Shown here: positions 29,914 through 41,081 of the stretch, piece by piece | Layout of the letters: every line of letters starts with the position of its first letter | Position numbering within the stretch: position 1 is the first letter of the stretch | Source: Cyanobacteria bacterium SIG26 | GTDB lineage: Bacteria > Cyanobacteriota > Vampirovibrionia > Gastranaerophilales > Gastranaerophilaceae | DNA length: 64,000 nt | Direction: 5' to 3' | Assembly: GCA_015152555.1 (NCBI GenBank) | Contig: SUTS01000013.1 | Location: forward strand, 1 to 64,000 | The notes under the pieces: model-generated | Told to the model about the DNA's origin: nothing | Databases searched by the model: none | The model's input: only the letters and a program-made list of their open reading frames with translations | Made by a program: the position numbers and the translations under genes

Positions 29914-30204
29914 ATGGACGCAGTAAAAGGTATTAAAATCGGTGCAAATTATTTTGTAGATATGGCAAAACAAAGAAATTTAAAAATTACAAGTATTCCA
30001 CTAAAAGATAAAACAGCAGTAAAGATTTTATCTAATGATGATACTTTTGAACTTTATCACGTTGATAAAGGTCATATCACAGCAGCAAAAGGCTTTAAAG
30101 GCTCGTTAGAAGGCTATTTAAACTTTGCAGGACGTATGATTGAAAAAGTACAAAATGCAGCAGCAGAAGGTATTGATGTTATGCAAGAATGGAGATGGTT
30201 TTAA
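29914..30204 (+). CDS. 96-aa orphan protein
   Basis: Unrecognised small protein with a strong start (GAAAGGA before ATG) and its own terminator. Begins MDAVKGIKIGANYFVDMAK, then LKITSIPLKDKTAVKIL, FELYHVDKG and a C-terminal helix ending EWRWF. It looks like a compact alpha/beta fold. No export signal, cysteine or metal motif. The upstream element AGCAAA-N18-TTAATG groups it with other lineage orphans here. Confidence 0.75.
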   Translation: MDAVKGIKIGANYFVDMAKQRNLKITSIPLKDKTAVKILSNDDTFELYHVDKGHITAAKGFKGSLEGYLNFAGRMIEKVQNAAAEGIDVMQEWRWF

Positions 30205-30225
30205 TATCAAACATAAATAATTGTA

Positions 30226-30252
30226 AAGCAGGGTGTATCCCTGCTTTTTTTG
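30226..30252 (+). terminator. Terminator of the 96-aa gene
   Basis: Arms AAGCAGGG (30226-30233) and CCCTGCTT (30239-30246), loop TGTAT, then a run of T. Confidence 0.85.
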
Positions 30253-30326
30253 TGCTATTATGTACTTGGTCTAAAATTTTTTTAGTAAGTAACAAATTTT
30301 TATTTATAGGGATTGAGGTATTAGCT

Positions 30327-32021
30327 ATGAAATTTGAAAATGTATTTTCTCTATTAGAAGAAATCACCATCAAAAATTGTGAAAAAGTTTCAGTAGGTAT
30401 GAAATCAAAATGGGGATGGAATGAATTTACGTACAGAGGTCTTGGATTATTATCAAGAAGACTTGCTTGTTATTTAATCAATGATTTGCAAATCGAAAAA
30501 GGTGAAAAGCTTGCGATTATGTCAGAATCAAAACCGGAATATGGTGCTTGTGTATTTGGTTCAGTTTTAGCAGGGTTAACTACTGTACCTTTAGATAACA
30601 AATTAACAATTTATGAAATGGAGTCAATCCTTTCTAATTGTAATCCTGTGGTATTATTAACATCAAGCGCGAACCTTGAAAAAGCAAAAGAATTGAAAAC
30701 CAAAGTATCATCAATCAAGCATATTATTGTTATGGAAACTTCAGCATGCGAATGTGCAGAAATGCCAAGCTTATATTCGCTTCCTGAAAACTACAATACT
30801 AAATGGAGACGAAGAGCATTAGGTTCAACTGCATTTATTATTTATACATCAGGTACGACAGGAAACCCAAAAGGTGTAGAAATCACATTCAAGAATATGC
30901 TTGCACAAATGCATGATTTAAGAAAAGCTTTGAAAATGATTTTACCTTCAGAAAATGATATGAGAGTATTATCAATTCTTCCAATGAACCATTTATTTGA
31001 ATTAACTGTAGGGTTCTTTACATTCTTGAACCACGGTTTTTCAATTTACTATACACAAAGTCTAAAGCCAAAAGATATTTTAGAAGTTATGTCTGAAAAG
31101 AAAATCAAATTCATGGTTACTGTTCCTGCATTTTTAAAATTATTAAAATCATCAATAGAAGCAGAAATCAGTAAAAAACCTCCAATGATTCAAAAAATTG
31201 TAAAAGCTAATTTGGCTGTAGCAAAATATTTACCATTTGAAACAAGAAGAAAAATGTTTAAACCAATTCACGACAAATTCGGTGGAGAATTCTGGGGTTG
31301 TATCGCAGGTGGAGCTCCATTAGATCCTCAAGTTGGTGAATTCTTCCAAAGCCTTGGTATTGTATGTTTACAAGGTTATGGTTTATCAGAAGCTTCACCT
31401 GTTGTTGCAGTAAATAGAGGTAAATATATTGATATGAAATCTATCGGACCTGCATTAGATTCATTTGAAGTTAAAATTGATGAAACAACAGGAGAATTAT
31501 TGTTGCGCGGACCTTCTATTATGAAAGGTTACTACAACAGCCCTGAATTAACAGCAGAAGTTATCGATGAAGATAATTGGTTACATACCGGAGATATCGC
31601 AAGTATAGATTCTAAAACAAAAAATATTTATATCACAGGTCGTATTAAGAATATGATCGTATTATCAGGTGGTAAAAAAGTATTCCCTGAAGAAGTAGAA
31701 GCAGTTTTGGAACAAAGTTCTAATTTTGCAGAAGTTTGTGTAATGGGAATGAAACGCGAATTCGGGGAAAAAGATGGTTGTGAAGAAATCGTTGCAATCG
31801 TTGTTCCAACCGAAAAATATGCAGCTAATTTTAGTGAAAGAGATAATTTAGAAGCTGCAGTGCAAAATGAAGTTAAATTCTTGTCAACGAGACTAGCTTC
31901 ATACAAACGACCAATTAAGATTATTGTTCATACTGAGTGTCTTCCAAGAACGACAACAAGAAAACTTAAACGTATGGAAATTAAAAAGATGCTTAGCGAA
32001 CTTGAAACAGTAAATAAATAA
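30327..32021 (+). CDS. AMP-dependent synthetase / long-chain acyl-CoA ligase-like
   Basis: 564 aa. ANL-superfamily adenylation enzyme: P-loop FIIYTSGTTGNPKGVEIT, the A5-type motif LQGYGLSEASP, LHTGDIASID and the C-terminal catalytic Lys region (TTTRKLKRMEI). The overall pattern (PMNHLFELTVGF, GGKKVFPEEVE) is that of long-chain fatty acid CoA ligases or acyl-ACP synthetases. The cytoplasmic reaction would be fatty acid plus ATP plus CoA to acyl-CoA. The start is ATG 30327, after TTGAGG; the open frame upstream runs through the preceding terminator and is rejected. Monocistronic. Confidence 0.9.
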   Translation: MKFENVFSLLEEITIKNCEKVSVGMKSKWGWNEFTYRGLGLLSRRLACYLINDLQIEKGEKLAIMSESKPEYGACVFGSVLAGLTTVPLDNKLTIYEMESILSNCNPVVLLTSSANLEKAKELKTKVSSIKHIIVMETSACECAEMPSLYSLPENYNTKWRRRALGSTAFIIYTSGTTGNPKGVEITFKNMLAQMHDLRKALKMILPSENDMRVLSILPMNHLFELTVGFFTFLNHGFSIYYTQSLKPKDILEVMSEKKIKFMVTVPAFLKLLKSSIEAEISKKPPMIQKIVKANLAVAKYLPFETRRKMFKPIHDKFGGEFWGCIAGGAPLDPQVGEFFQSLGIVCLQGYGLSEASPVVAVNRGKYIDMKSIGPALDSFEVKIDETTGELLLRGPSIMKGYYNSPELTAEVIDEDNWLHTGDIASIDSKTKNIYITGRIKNMIVLSGGKKVFPEEVEAVLEQSSNFAEVCVMGMKREFGEKDGCEEIVAIVVPTEKYAANFSERDNLEAAVQNEVKFLSTRLASYKRPIKIIVHTECLPRTTTRKLKRMEIKKMLSELETVNK

Positions 32022-37939: not shown

Positions 37940-39856
37940 TTAAATTTCTACACCTAATTTTGTTAATTCAGATATAGAAGGGTCAAGTAATCTTCTGCCC
38001 ACATTTTCAAACGCTATAGAACATAGTGTTTTGTCACCATATTTAATAATTTTTTCAACAACACCACGTCCATATCTTGGATGAGTTACACTATCTCCTT
38101 GAGCAAATCCGACAGAAACAGTTGAATTATCTTCCACCGGATAAACAGGGACCACTTGCGAATCACCCTGCTCAAACGACATTTCCTCATAATCCTTATC
38201 AAAAATTTCTTCATTTTCAATAATTTGATTATCTTCAATATAATTCAAATCTTCTTCAGTCAAATCCTCATTAAAACCTAAATCTTCGTCATAAGGATGA
38301 ATTTCATCTGTGATTTCATCAAAAGTATGTAAATCATCATCACCACCAATATCTTCTACCGGATTGATTTCAACTTCGGAATCATCAAACGAGTGTACCG
38401 CATTTAAAAGATTTGCAACAGGTTTAATTGTATTTACAGATGATGTAAAACCATTATCTACATCTGAATATAAATCCTGCCCCATATCATAAGAAGTATC
38501 AACAGGTTTTGACATCTGAGATGATTTATACATATCTGCATTAGATTCTTCTACAAGAATTTTATTACCATAATCATCTAATCGAACAATTTTAACATCT
38601 TCCGCTATCGGTACGAATTGACATCTTTCGCCCAAAACATCTTCTTTTGTTAAAGGTAATTCTAAATCGTCCATATCAATAACAAAAGGAATACCTTGCG
38701 TTAGTTTACCTTCAACAATACATTCATTCGGATTTAGTTTACTAATAAAAGTATTATATATCGCAAAATCATGATTTAACGACATAGGAGTAAACAACAT
38801 TATATTTTGAGCATGCTGACGCAAATCAAATGCATACTTGTAAGTCGGACTGACCAACAATGTTGTAAATACATGATTATGATTAATAATCTGCCTTAAA
38901 AGTTTTTTATCAGAATTATCATCATTAATCGGCAAAAATAAATATGTATATTTATCTAGTTGAGCCAAAACGTTATGAATATGCAATATAACTTCTTTTT
39001 GTAAACTTTCGCATATATTTTTCAAATCAAAAATAATACAATTTCTTTTATTTACAATATCATTCAGTAATAAAACATCTTCGATAGAGTCAGCAAAAAT
39101 ACCTGAGTCCTTATATTTTAATAGCTTATTTTTCAATAAAGCTAATTCAGGCATTTGAGTAGACTTATATTGTTCAGCAACAACTTCAACAAACTTGTCA
39201 ATTGATAAAAATTGCCCATCCAAAGTTTTGATATACTGTTGAACTTCATAAAAAATATCTTGAATAACCGCCCTTGTAGAGGCATCTACCTCTTTTAAAT
39301 CATATTCAAAAATATAATCTATCATCTCAGAATTCAACGGCAATTTAAAATCTCGAGATAATTCAACTTTCTCATAATCTTCAAATAAATTTGCATCATC
39401 TATAATAATACATTTTTCTTTCATCTGAAAAAGCTGTCTAACGCAATTAGAAACAAATGTCGCTTTACATGAATCTGAATCAACAAACACAGTAAAATTG
39501 CGTTCAAAAATTGAAACATCTAATGCTAACATATCTTCTTGTTGTGATAAATTTCCAAATGTTACAGGAGTTTCAATCGGTAACAAATCTAACAATTCAG
39601 AAGATGACAAAAATGATAATTCCGAATCAACATTAGGAATCGAACCGTCATAATTATCAACAACACCATCTGAAGTAAATGTGAATAATAATTTTGCAAT
39701 AGCGTAACTATTTGACACATCTGATTTCAAATTTACAAGCTGAGCTACATAAGACTTTTCCCCAGTCGCTATGACAATAAACCTACCTAAAACAGGTGAC
39801 TCAGTTTCCGAATATGACAACTTCACCAAATTATTCTTAATCTCGAGTAATTTCAT
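37940..39856 (-). CDS. Degenerate HerA-like ATPase fused to a PcrA/UvrD-type C-terminal tail
   Basis: 638 aa, not a known named protein. Residues 1-100 look like the HAS-barrel of HerA/FtsK-type ATPases (VLGRFIVIATGEKSYVAQLV). Residues about 115-420 follow the HerA fold: a strand leading to DSDSCKATF where a Walker A GxxxxGK[ST] should be, a Walker-B-like CIIFDLKN, and a terminal block with LRQHAQNIMLFTP. The P-loop is lost, so it probably does not hydrolyse ATP. Residues 430-585 are a long acidic linker. Residues about 588-637 (GDSVTHPRYGRGVVEKI ... FENVGRRLL) match the Tudor-like RNA-polymerase-binding tail of PcrA/UvrD. Possibly a DNA-repair or transcription adaptor. Confidence 0.7.
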   Translation of the reverse strand: MKLLEIKNNLVKLSYSETESPVLGRFIVIATGEKSYVAQLVNLKSDVSNSYAIAKLLFTFTSDGVVDNYDGSIPNVDSELSFLSSSELLDLLPIETPVTFGNLSQQEDMLALDVSIFERNFTVFVDSDSCKATFVSNCVRQLFQMKEKCIIIDDANLFEDYEKVELSRDFKLPLNSEMIDYIFEYDLKEVDASTRAVIQDIFYEVQQYIKTLDGQFLSIDKFVEVVAEQYKSTQMPELALLKNKLLKYKDSGIFADSIEDVLLLNDIVNKRNCIIFDLKNICESLQKEVILHIHNVLAQLDKYTYLFLPINDDNSDKKLLRQIINHNHVFTTLLVSPTYKYAFDLRQHAQNIMLFTPMSLNHDFAIYNTFISKLNPNECIVEGKLTQGIPFVIDMDDLELPLTKEDVLGERCQFVPIAEDVKIVRLDDYGNKILVEESNADMYKSSQMSKPVDTSYDMGQDLYSDVDNGFTSSVNTIKPVANLLNAVHSFDDSEVEINPVEDIGGDDDLHTFDEITDEIHPYDEDLGFNEDLTEEDLNYIEDNQIIENEEIFDKDYEEMSFEQGDSQVVPVYPVEDNSTVSVGFAQGDSVTHPRYGRGVVEKIIKYGDKTLCSIAFENVGRRLLDPSISELTKLGVEI

Positions 39857-39919
39857 TTTTGCCCTCTCTATTTATGAGAATTGTACCAAAAAAATACCAT
39901 CTTATGTTAATTTATTAAG

Positions 39920-40507
39920 TTACTTAACATCATTAAGATGATTATAAATTTCAATAGTAAGCGGACAAATCTTCAAATCTCTATCAACAAGACTTTTTAT
40001 CGTCTGTCTATAACACTGCAACAACGCACCATCTAGCCCCTTACCACAAGATAAACAATTACGTATAGGTTCCGCATACTCAAACTCGCGAGTATTATAT
40101 TCAATTTTATCTGCCAAAAATATAATCTTTTCAAAATCTGACATACCGACTCGGCCCAATGTATGCCATCTAATCGCCGATAAAATTTCACTGTCGCAAA
40201 CACCAAATTCTTTTTGCGCTATATATGCACTAACCGGAGCATGTATTGTTTTATAATTATTTTTTTCTGAGTCTAAAACATCCAAAGAACATTCATTAAT
40301 AATTTGCATAGATTTTTCATTAGAAAAGCATTTAGCACAATCATGTAACAAACCTGCAATATATGCTTTTTGGCTATCTAAAGCATAATCTTTTGCTAAT
40401 TCTTTTGCACATTCAGCCGCTCCGAGCGAATGTTCATATCGTTCTTCAGATAAGTTCTCTTTCAACCATTTTAATAAATCTTCTTCACTAACTTTGATAT
40501 AATCCAT
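39920..40507 (-). CDS. yqeK: YqeK-type HD-domain hydrolase (probable Ap4A hydrolase)
   Basis: 195 aa. HD domain with HSLGAAECAKELA, LLHDCAK (the HD pair) and a later AIRWHTLG / FLADKIE that supply further metal ligands. YqeK enzymes split diadenosine tetraphosphate symmetrically. The gene overlaps nadD by 20 nt, an arrangement common in Gram-positives (nadD-yqeK-rsfS). No rsfS follows here. Confidence 0.9.
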   Translation of the reverse strand: MDYIKVSEEDLLKWLKENLSEERYEHSLGAAECAKELAKDYALDSQKAYIAGLLHDCAKCFSNEKSMQIINECSLDVLDSEKNNYKTIHAPVSAYIAQKEFGVCDSEILSAIRWHTLGRVGMSDFEKIIFLADKIEYNTREFEYAEPIRNCLSCGKGLDGALLQCYRQTIKSLVDRDLKICPLTIEIYNHLNDVK

Positions 40508-41078
40508 TTTCTTTTATATATTCCTCTACTTGTTTAGGCACATACGTACTAATATCTTGGTTTTTTTCGATCATTTCGCGTAATTTTGTGGATGAAATAT
40601 CTTCATAACTTAACGATTGAAATTCGAAATCCACTCCAACTTCTTTATAATAATCATATCTGTTTTTGTCAAAATTGTCCTCCCTAACAAAGACGATAAA
40701 TTTCACTAAATCTTTCAAGCGTTCAAATTCATACCACAATTGTATTTTTTCAAACGCATCAGTACCAATAATAAAATTAATTCGCCCGTTTATGTTATAT
40801 AACTTTCGAAGTTCACATATAGTCAAATACGTATATGATTTACCACCACGCTTATATTCAATATCTGAAACCGAAAATCTGGGATTGTTTTGAATCGCTA
40901 AATTTACCATATTATATCTGTGTTTTGAAAACTCTAAATCAACAGATTTGTGAGGCGGATTATACGCAGGTATGAAAATAAATTTATCAAAATTATACTT
41001 TTCCACCAAAAAATCTGCCACTCTCAAATGTGCATTATGGATAGGATTAAATGTTCCTTGAAAAACACAAATATTCAT
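40488..41078 (-). CDS. nadD: Nicotinate-nucleotide adenylyltransferase
   Basis: 196 aa. It adenylates nicotinate mononucleotide in NAD synthesis. Nucleotidyltransferase signature FQGTFNPIHNAHL (the GxFxPxHxGH family, with N-A-H at the end), then YNPPHK and the C-terminal ISSTKLREMI (the ISSTxIR motif). The start is ATG 41078, just after a GTG, with GAGG 8 nt upstream. It begins 3 nt after cysK ends and overlaps yqeK by 20 nt: one operon. Confidence 0.93.
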   Translation of the reverse strand: MNICVFQGTFNPIHNAHLRVADFLVEKYNFDKFIFIPAYNPPHKSVDLEFSKHRYNMVNLAIQNNPRFSVSDIEYKRGGKSYTYLTICELRKLYNINGRINFIIGTDAFEKIQLWYEFERLKDLVKFIVFVREDNFDKNRYDYYKEVGVDFEFQSLSYEDISSTKLREMIEKNQDISTYVPKQVEEYIKENGLYQS

Positions 41079-41081
41079 CAC

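Follow-up and report, generated by a model that had tools for sequence, protein, structure and literature searches.

The Locus and the Layout of the Protein

The window, that is, the whole stretch of 64,000 nucleotides analysed here from a genome of the order Gastranaerophilales, carries on its minus strand an open reading frame of 638 amino acids at 37940-39856, whose start codon is ATG and whose N-terminus, MKLLEIKNN, is kept in close relatives. The order of domains that had been proposed for it from the letters alone (barrel, HerA core, acidic linker and PcrA-type tail) is borne out, the barrel being the weakest part. The features at the locus are as follows, with the basis of each in brackets.

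37940..39856, minus strand, whole open reading frame of 638 amino acids: HAS-like barrel, dead HerA core, acidic linker and PcrA-type Tudor (open reading frame list; match in 58/58 genomes of the order)
37943..38110, minus strand, residues 583-638, PcrA/UvrD-type Tudor tail (profile matches, tail alignment)
38111..38656, minus strand, residues 401-582, acidic disordered linker (pLDDT mostly 30-50; composition)
38657..39571, minus strand, residues 96-400, predicted HerA-type RecA-like core (predicted fold, structure and profile matches, DUF87 over the cut-off in relatives)
39461..39484, minus strand, VDSDSCKA at residues 125-132, where the Walker A P-loop has been lost (family-profile alignment with ATGSGKS of SsoHerA; 67 members)
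39572..39856, minus strand, residues 1-95, HAS-like β-barrel, low confidence (predicted strands, superposition on the HerA N-terminus)
39862..39868, minus strand, Shine-Dalgarno-like gagaggg just upstream of the ATG (sequence)
39920..40507, minus strand, HD-domain protein, upstream neighbour (Pfam HD; adjoins the gene in 33/33 family loci)
40488..41081, minus strand, cytidylyltransferase-like protein, upstream neighbour (Pfam CTP_transf_like; 33/33 family loci)

Promoter and terminator scans of the gene gave no more than shuffled sequence did, and neither the Pfam nor the NCBIfam library holds a family of its own for the protein. The observation of a dead HerA core joined to a PcrA-type tail is confirmed to be real. 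As the first-pass annotation had supposed, this combination of domains appears not to have been described: a literature search of open-licence papers gave no match, and to our knowledge this is the first HerA relative that seems to have swapped its motor for a docking tail.

The HerA-Type Core

An ATPase fold was expected for the core, and structure prediction gives the HerA fold. The AlphaFold model, made from 34 sequences, has pLDDT about 90 at residues 110-350 and near 75 at the core edges, and the top PDB match in a Foldseek search with it is HerA 4d2i_B (E 1.2e-11). By VIA the model is aligned with HerA 8xau_E over 320 residues (Z 23.1, rmsd 3.2) and with HerA 4d2i_B over 328 residues (Z 22.0, rmsd 4.8). 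Because VirB4 (Z 21.6), DndH and TrwB come next in the VIA ranking, the core is placed in the HerA branch on sequence matches and fold together. As for the former, a profile of 28 cores found a sole match at E ≤10 among PDB sequences, namely SsoHerA 4d2i (E 2.4e-6). The 638-amino acid protein itself reaches 16.1 bits with Pfam DUF87, below the cut-off of 23.2, and more distant family members exceed this cut-off (L064, 33.8 bits; L068, 36.6 bits). DUF87 is also over the cut-off at the locus of the gene in five genomes of the order in the genome scan, and at E 1 it matches 9/28 members; these scores vary between two scans (G037/L072, 23.3 against 19.3 bits), and L071 (from G042) gives 26.2 bits in one scan and no DUF87 row in the other. 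On the predicted model, the core is of HerA-type fold.

Loss of the ATP Site

The first-pass annotation had read DSDSCKATF in place of Walker A, and the P-loop is found to be degenerate in all 67 aligned relatives, a set which consists of the family loci and the window protein minus identical copies and frames shorter than 560 amino acids. In the family-profile alignment, ATGSGKS of SsoHerA pairs with ADKESQKN of the family consensus. The first glycine of Walker A is present in 1/67 members, the second and the third in 0/67 each and the lysine in 43/67, and the strict pattern GxxxxGK[ST] occurs in none of the 67. A P-loop elsewhere in the protein was considered and rejected, the sole match to [AG]xxxxGK[ST] being at residue 28 of L013, in the barrel and away from the site. 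The catalytic glutamate of Walker B (residue 310) is found in 0/67 members and an aspartate at residue 309 in 8/67, these positions being set by the end of the predicted Walker B strand (304-309) and not by alignment. D153, which lies in the strand matching D-Y-H-G-E-Y of HerA, is invariant (67/67). Four DUF87-matching proteins of the relatives (L084, L085, L087 and L088) do have P-loops, so the method is able to detect one. Since the ATP site of the core is lost, translocation would not be expected.

The protein is thus like HerA (SsoHerA 4d2i and the defence HerA 8xau) in its RecA-like core and, on a model of low confidence there, in its barrel-like N-terminus, and the D-x-x-G-E strand and the terminal G-k-l...P strand of HerA align with its family. 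Unlike HerA, it has neither Walker A nor a glutamate at the end of the predicted Walker B strand, it is acidic, it ends in a Tudor tail and its own genome is without NurA. Active resection of the HerA-NurA kind was rejected, there being no DUF87 match at E 1e-3 and no NurA in the own genome; among 30 relatives NurA gave a match in one. A precedent for inactive P-loop domains that are kept is given by BREX and Dnd proteins, which retain them perhaps for binding, according to the available part of PMC12839542; those domains, as that part has it, are of the Swi2/Snf2 and STAND types and belong to defence systems, so they differ from the present protein in being neither HerA nor joined to such a tail.

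The N-Terminal Barrel and the Acidic Linker

The HAS-like barrel holds in one respect and falls short in another. The model of residues 6-400, which includes the barrel, superposes on 4d2i_B from chain residue 2 onward (Z 22.0, rmsd 5.2, 352 aligned), and strands are predicted, but residues 1-83 have pLDDT below 50 in both AlphaFold models, the second run (residues 1-400) giving the barrel no higher confidence. Pfam HAS-barrel is absent from the matches of 28 members at E 1, and a search of 30 genomes for HAS-barrel families did not pick up the gene. The N-terminal domain is therefore called, more weakly and on the model, HAS-like and not a proven HAS-barrel.

The linker is acidic and disordered as claimed, but the proposed 150 residues were slightly short, for 182 are counted (401-582), with 27% D/E versus 5% K/R. 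Among the 67 relatives, linkers are of 120-621 residues and 27-41% D/E. Acidity is not confined to the linker: the pI of the core is 4.7 (mostly 4.6-5.1 in relatives), and that of the whole protein, 4.31, is the lowest among 50 open reading frames of at least 150 amino acids in the window, against 5.3-6.3 in the four P-loop-bearing DUF87-matching proteins of relatives. These values speak against the earlier suggestion of a DNA-bound scaffold, which is unlikely given so acidic a core. A more specific form of it, in which a dead HerA hexamer would be a passive clamp round DNA and the tail would link it to transcription or repair, draws on the nearest folds being those of DNA translocases, but with this acidity and with no nucleotide switch for loading we regard it as distinctly improbable.

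The Tudor Tail

The kinship of the tail with the Tudor domain of PcrA/UvrD, which had been recognized in the letters, stands. The Pfam profile PcrA_UvrD_tudor matches 28/28 members at E ≤1 (best, 3.7e-7). Against the cut-off of 23.9 bits, the 638-amino acid protein scores 19.5 in one scan and 23.7 in another, and 24.2 together with its neighbours; L068, L071, L072 and L079 are above it by themselves (25.1-29.5 bits). A profile of 27 tails, L069 of the 28 rows being masked and omitted from the alignment, finds UvrD/PcrA tails in the PDB (9dqs, 5.3e-8; 7egs, 1.5e-6; 5dma, 0.002). CarD_TRCF_RID also matches the tails in 26/28 members at E 1 (best, 0.0014), but the match to the PcrA Tudor is stronger, and among the matches listed in the scan of relatives every CarD_TRCF_RID score is below the 23-bit cut-off (14.1 bits for the 638-amino acid protein).

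In PcrA of G. stearothermophilus, each of the substitutions H681A, W684A, K712A and L714A severely cuts the pull-down of RNA polymerase (Sanders et al. 2017, PMC5397179, in the portion available). By alignment the counterparts in the tail are H592, Y595, R622 and L624, and in the 27 tails these positions read H 27/27, Y 27/27, R 25 plus K 2, and L 27/27. The tail is therefore like the C-terminal Tudor of PcrA/UvrD (5dma, 9dqs) in sequence, in the types of the RNA polymerase-binding residues and in the disordered linker before it; the difference is that the Tudor here sits on a dead HerA core and not on an SF1 helicase. It may also share the Tudor-like RNA polymerase-binding fold of Mfd RID and CarD, to which it has the weak Pfam match; those proteins bind β1. 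Another genome-maintenance protein with a PcrA-like Tudor is DinX, a Y-family polymerase with disorder around its Tudor, as described in the accessible text of PMC6511836. There DinX is an active polymerase, unlike the 638-amino acid protein, whose body is catalytically dead.

Distribution, Selection and Gene Context

A match to the 638-amino acid protein is present in 58/58 Gastranaerophilales genomes of one sample and, among the matches listed and as counted by hand from the table, in 130/131 genomes of the order. In 29 genomes that belong to the phylum but to other orders or classes, no match to the core profile reaches E ≤0.01; one fragment has E 0.016. The phyletic distribution, which the first-pass annotation had named as a check, is thus order-wide presence with the core not found in the 29 genomes outside. 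From one genome of the order (G125, 99% complete, about 110 contigs) the protein is absent, also by profile, which is either a true loss or a gap. A mobile origin was considered and rejected, as collections of plasmids, phages and viral contigs gave no match.

Across seven close pairs, dN/dS is 0.02-0.06 for the barrel, 0.02-0.12 for the core and 0.05-0.34 for the linker, and for the tail it is 0-0.07 (six pairs, the tail of L069/L075 being left out); the pair L020/L021 gives the values of L038/L043 and was taken as the same genomes, so that seven pairs count. Core and tail being strongly constrained, the gene is not a decaying one. Decay, or a chance resemblance, might be suspected from the lost P-loop and from the scores of the 638-amino acid protein, which by itself is under the Pfam cut-offs, but dN/dS far below 1, nearly universal presence and the profile and fold matches make this extremely improbable.

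The two upstream neighbours adjoin the gene in all 33 loci of the window's family; the HD-domain protein is presumably YqeK-like, by position and domain, and the cytidylyltransferase-like protein is taken to be NadD-like. These neighbours do not point to repair. They could suggest a metabolite sensor tied to nadD-yqeK, whose altered nucleotide site would read NAD precursors or dinucleotides. Against this, in the order's other families neither gene is nearby at any of 20 loci, and in 10/19 loci there a protein of about 153 amino acids (151-162) that belongs to no known family lies directly upstream, 19-88 bases away; the one scanned has no Pfam match above the cut-off. A sensor of this kind is accordingly very improbable. 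The loci with the upstream protein of about 153 amino acids are L064, L069, L071-L077 and L083. In 11/19 loci of other families, a gene read as comM/yifB lies within three genes. Since the gene's surroundings change from one family of the order to another, the context does not fix the function.

Candidate Ligands and Proposed Function

The PcrA tail has been mapped to the pattern [VIL]-D-x-x-T-G-E-[VIL]-[VILT], the helicase-interaction motif (HIM), in SI1 of RpoB, and the pattern occurs also in UvrB (Urrutia-Irazabal et al. 2021, PMC8318588, in the part available). The own assembly (G000, 95.6% complete) contains UvrB and PcrA and has no rpoB match, likely because of an assembly gap; as the own rpoB is not in the assembly, RpoB of relatives was used instead. 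The SI1-type motif is present in 0/14 RpoB loci of 13 related genomes. In UvrB of 14 loci, including that of the own genome, the motif is present in 3/14 by the strict pattern and in 13/14 by a relaxed one, which was set by us beyond the published strict pattern. The own UvrB has a relaxed match, IDNVSGEII at 230, and the 14th, outside the relaxed pattern, reads TDPTTGEV. With exact or near motifs in 13/14 UvrB versus 0/14 RpoB, UvrB is the better supported ligand.

Because the SI1 motif is absent, contact with the polymerase, if real, needs another site, for example a β1 hairpin with a TGE/SGE-type tip. Such a hairpin, VNRD[TS]GEIKE or INKETGEIKE near residue 100 of RpoB, occurs in 12/14 loci of relatives and belongs, by our reading of the sequence, to the β1 part. 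On the earlier claim that the tail tethers the protein to RNA polymerase the evidence is divided: all four RNA polymerase-binding residue types are kept in the tails, but the SI1 motif is missing from all 14 RpoB loci. In a form of the claim that allows for this, the tail would bind RNA polymerase β at the β1 hairpin and not at SI1, and the core would modulate transcription or protect stalled polymerase. In favour of this are the hairpin (VNRD[TS]GEIKE or a near form) and the weak CarD_TRCF_RID match, Mfd and CarD being β1 binders (PMC5397179, in the portion available). Beyond the missing SI1 motif, the tail matches the PcrA Tudor better than RID, and the B. subtilis PcrA tail left β1 unprotected in the part available of PMC8318588. 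On balance this tether is possible, but we think it rather doubtful.

The reading that we favour, tentatively and at somewhat short of an even chance, is a non-catalytic HerA-fold adaptor whose tail docks on UvrB and perhaps on RNA polymerase. A HerA shape without a working ATP site, combined with the docking domain of PcrA, suggests that the protein is probably an adaptor and not a motor. In the scheme that we infer, from oligomer and docking to partner and pathway, the HerA-type core would be a fixed, perhaps oligomeric, protein-binding body, from which the long and flexible acidic linker would carry the PcrA-type Tudor. The Tudor would dock on a β-hairpin of the HIM kind, with UvrB as the best candidate and β1 of RNA polymerase as the second, and the core would be brought to excision-repair or transcription complexes or would compete with PcrA there. 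PcrA may serve these hairpins already.

A search of the own genome for the motif by DNA pattern was not informative. It gave four matches, all in seemingly unrelated enzymes, which we take to be PheT-like, MnmE-like and, for two of them, acyl-CoA-ligase-like, so the motif alone is weak. The open reading frame at 30189-32021 of the window (plus strand), which looks like an acyl-CoA ligase, has a strict match, IDETTGELL, and a similar protein on contig C14 of the own assembly has IDPNTGELL; both are probably due to chance. In L066 (and L080) an open reading frame of 494 amino acids after the gene has a stretch IDPVTGERV, and we read it as an FHIPEP-type (FlhA) domain without the membrane part.

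PcrA of the Order and the Origin of the Tail

A Tudor match occurs in 29/30 genomes, and most of these carry two, one of them in a frame of the size of PcrA. Pfam confirms that five PcrA frames are UvrD helicases, namely that of the own genome, another from the order, one from each of two sister families, f8 and f9, and one from elsewhere in the phylum. The Tudor of the own PcrA scores 22.7 bits, below the Pfam cut-off of 23.9. At the position of W684, the 29 PcrA tails of the order (G040 being counted twice) have methionine (14), phenylalanine (9), leucine (3) or tyrosine (3), and at that of L714 they have methionine (22), isoleucine (3), valine (2) or leucine (2); all six PcrA examined from f8 and f9 have phenylalanine at the former and leucine at the latter. 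Against the tail profile, the PcrA tails of f8 and f9 score 56.7-72.0 bits and those of the order 25.5-50.6. The signatures also differ, GRRLLDP on the tail of the 638-amino acid family versus GKKAMDA on most PcrA of the order; in the window's genus (for example L122) the PcrA Tudor ends in GKKAMDA, and in the sister families the type is GKKLLDP.

In a tree of 71 Tudors, the tails, the PcrA of the order and the PcrA of f8 and f9 lie on one side (branch support 98/95), and the PcrA of f8 groups with 24 tails (97/93); the tree is built on 57 columns, its branches are long, and two tails, both from family f2, are placed elsewhere in it. From this tree and the tail-profile scores, the tail of the dead HerA protein comes probably from a PcrA Tudor, and, judged from sequence, it was probably derived within this class, the copy of PcrA itself having drifted afterwards. 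Alternatively, the higher scores of f8 and f9 could arise because a profile built from tails merely favours slow sequences. The dead HerA protein was not found in the f8 and f9 genomes tested.

A further step would be a hand-over of docking, since the GK[KR]LLDP-type signature is on PcrA in f8 and f9 and on the dead HerA protein in the order. The latter would then be the main platform for UvrB or RNA polymerase, and PcrA, whose Tudor has drifted at two RNA polymerase-binding residues, would be recruited differently. We consider this hand-over unlikely. Whatever its exact role, the protein is nearly universal in an entire gut-dwelling order related to cyanobacteria and has no Pfam or NCBIfam family of its own. 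These cells also offer a natural test of the purpose of the PcrA Tudor, with two Tudors per cell, one conserved and one drifting, and in the same cells the polymerase insert motif is gone and the UvrB hairpins are retained.
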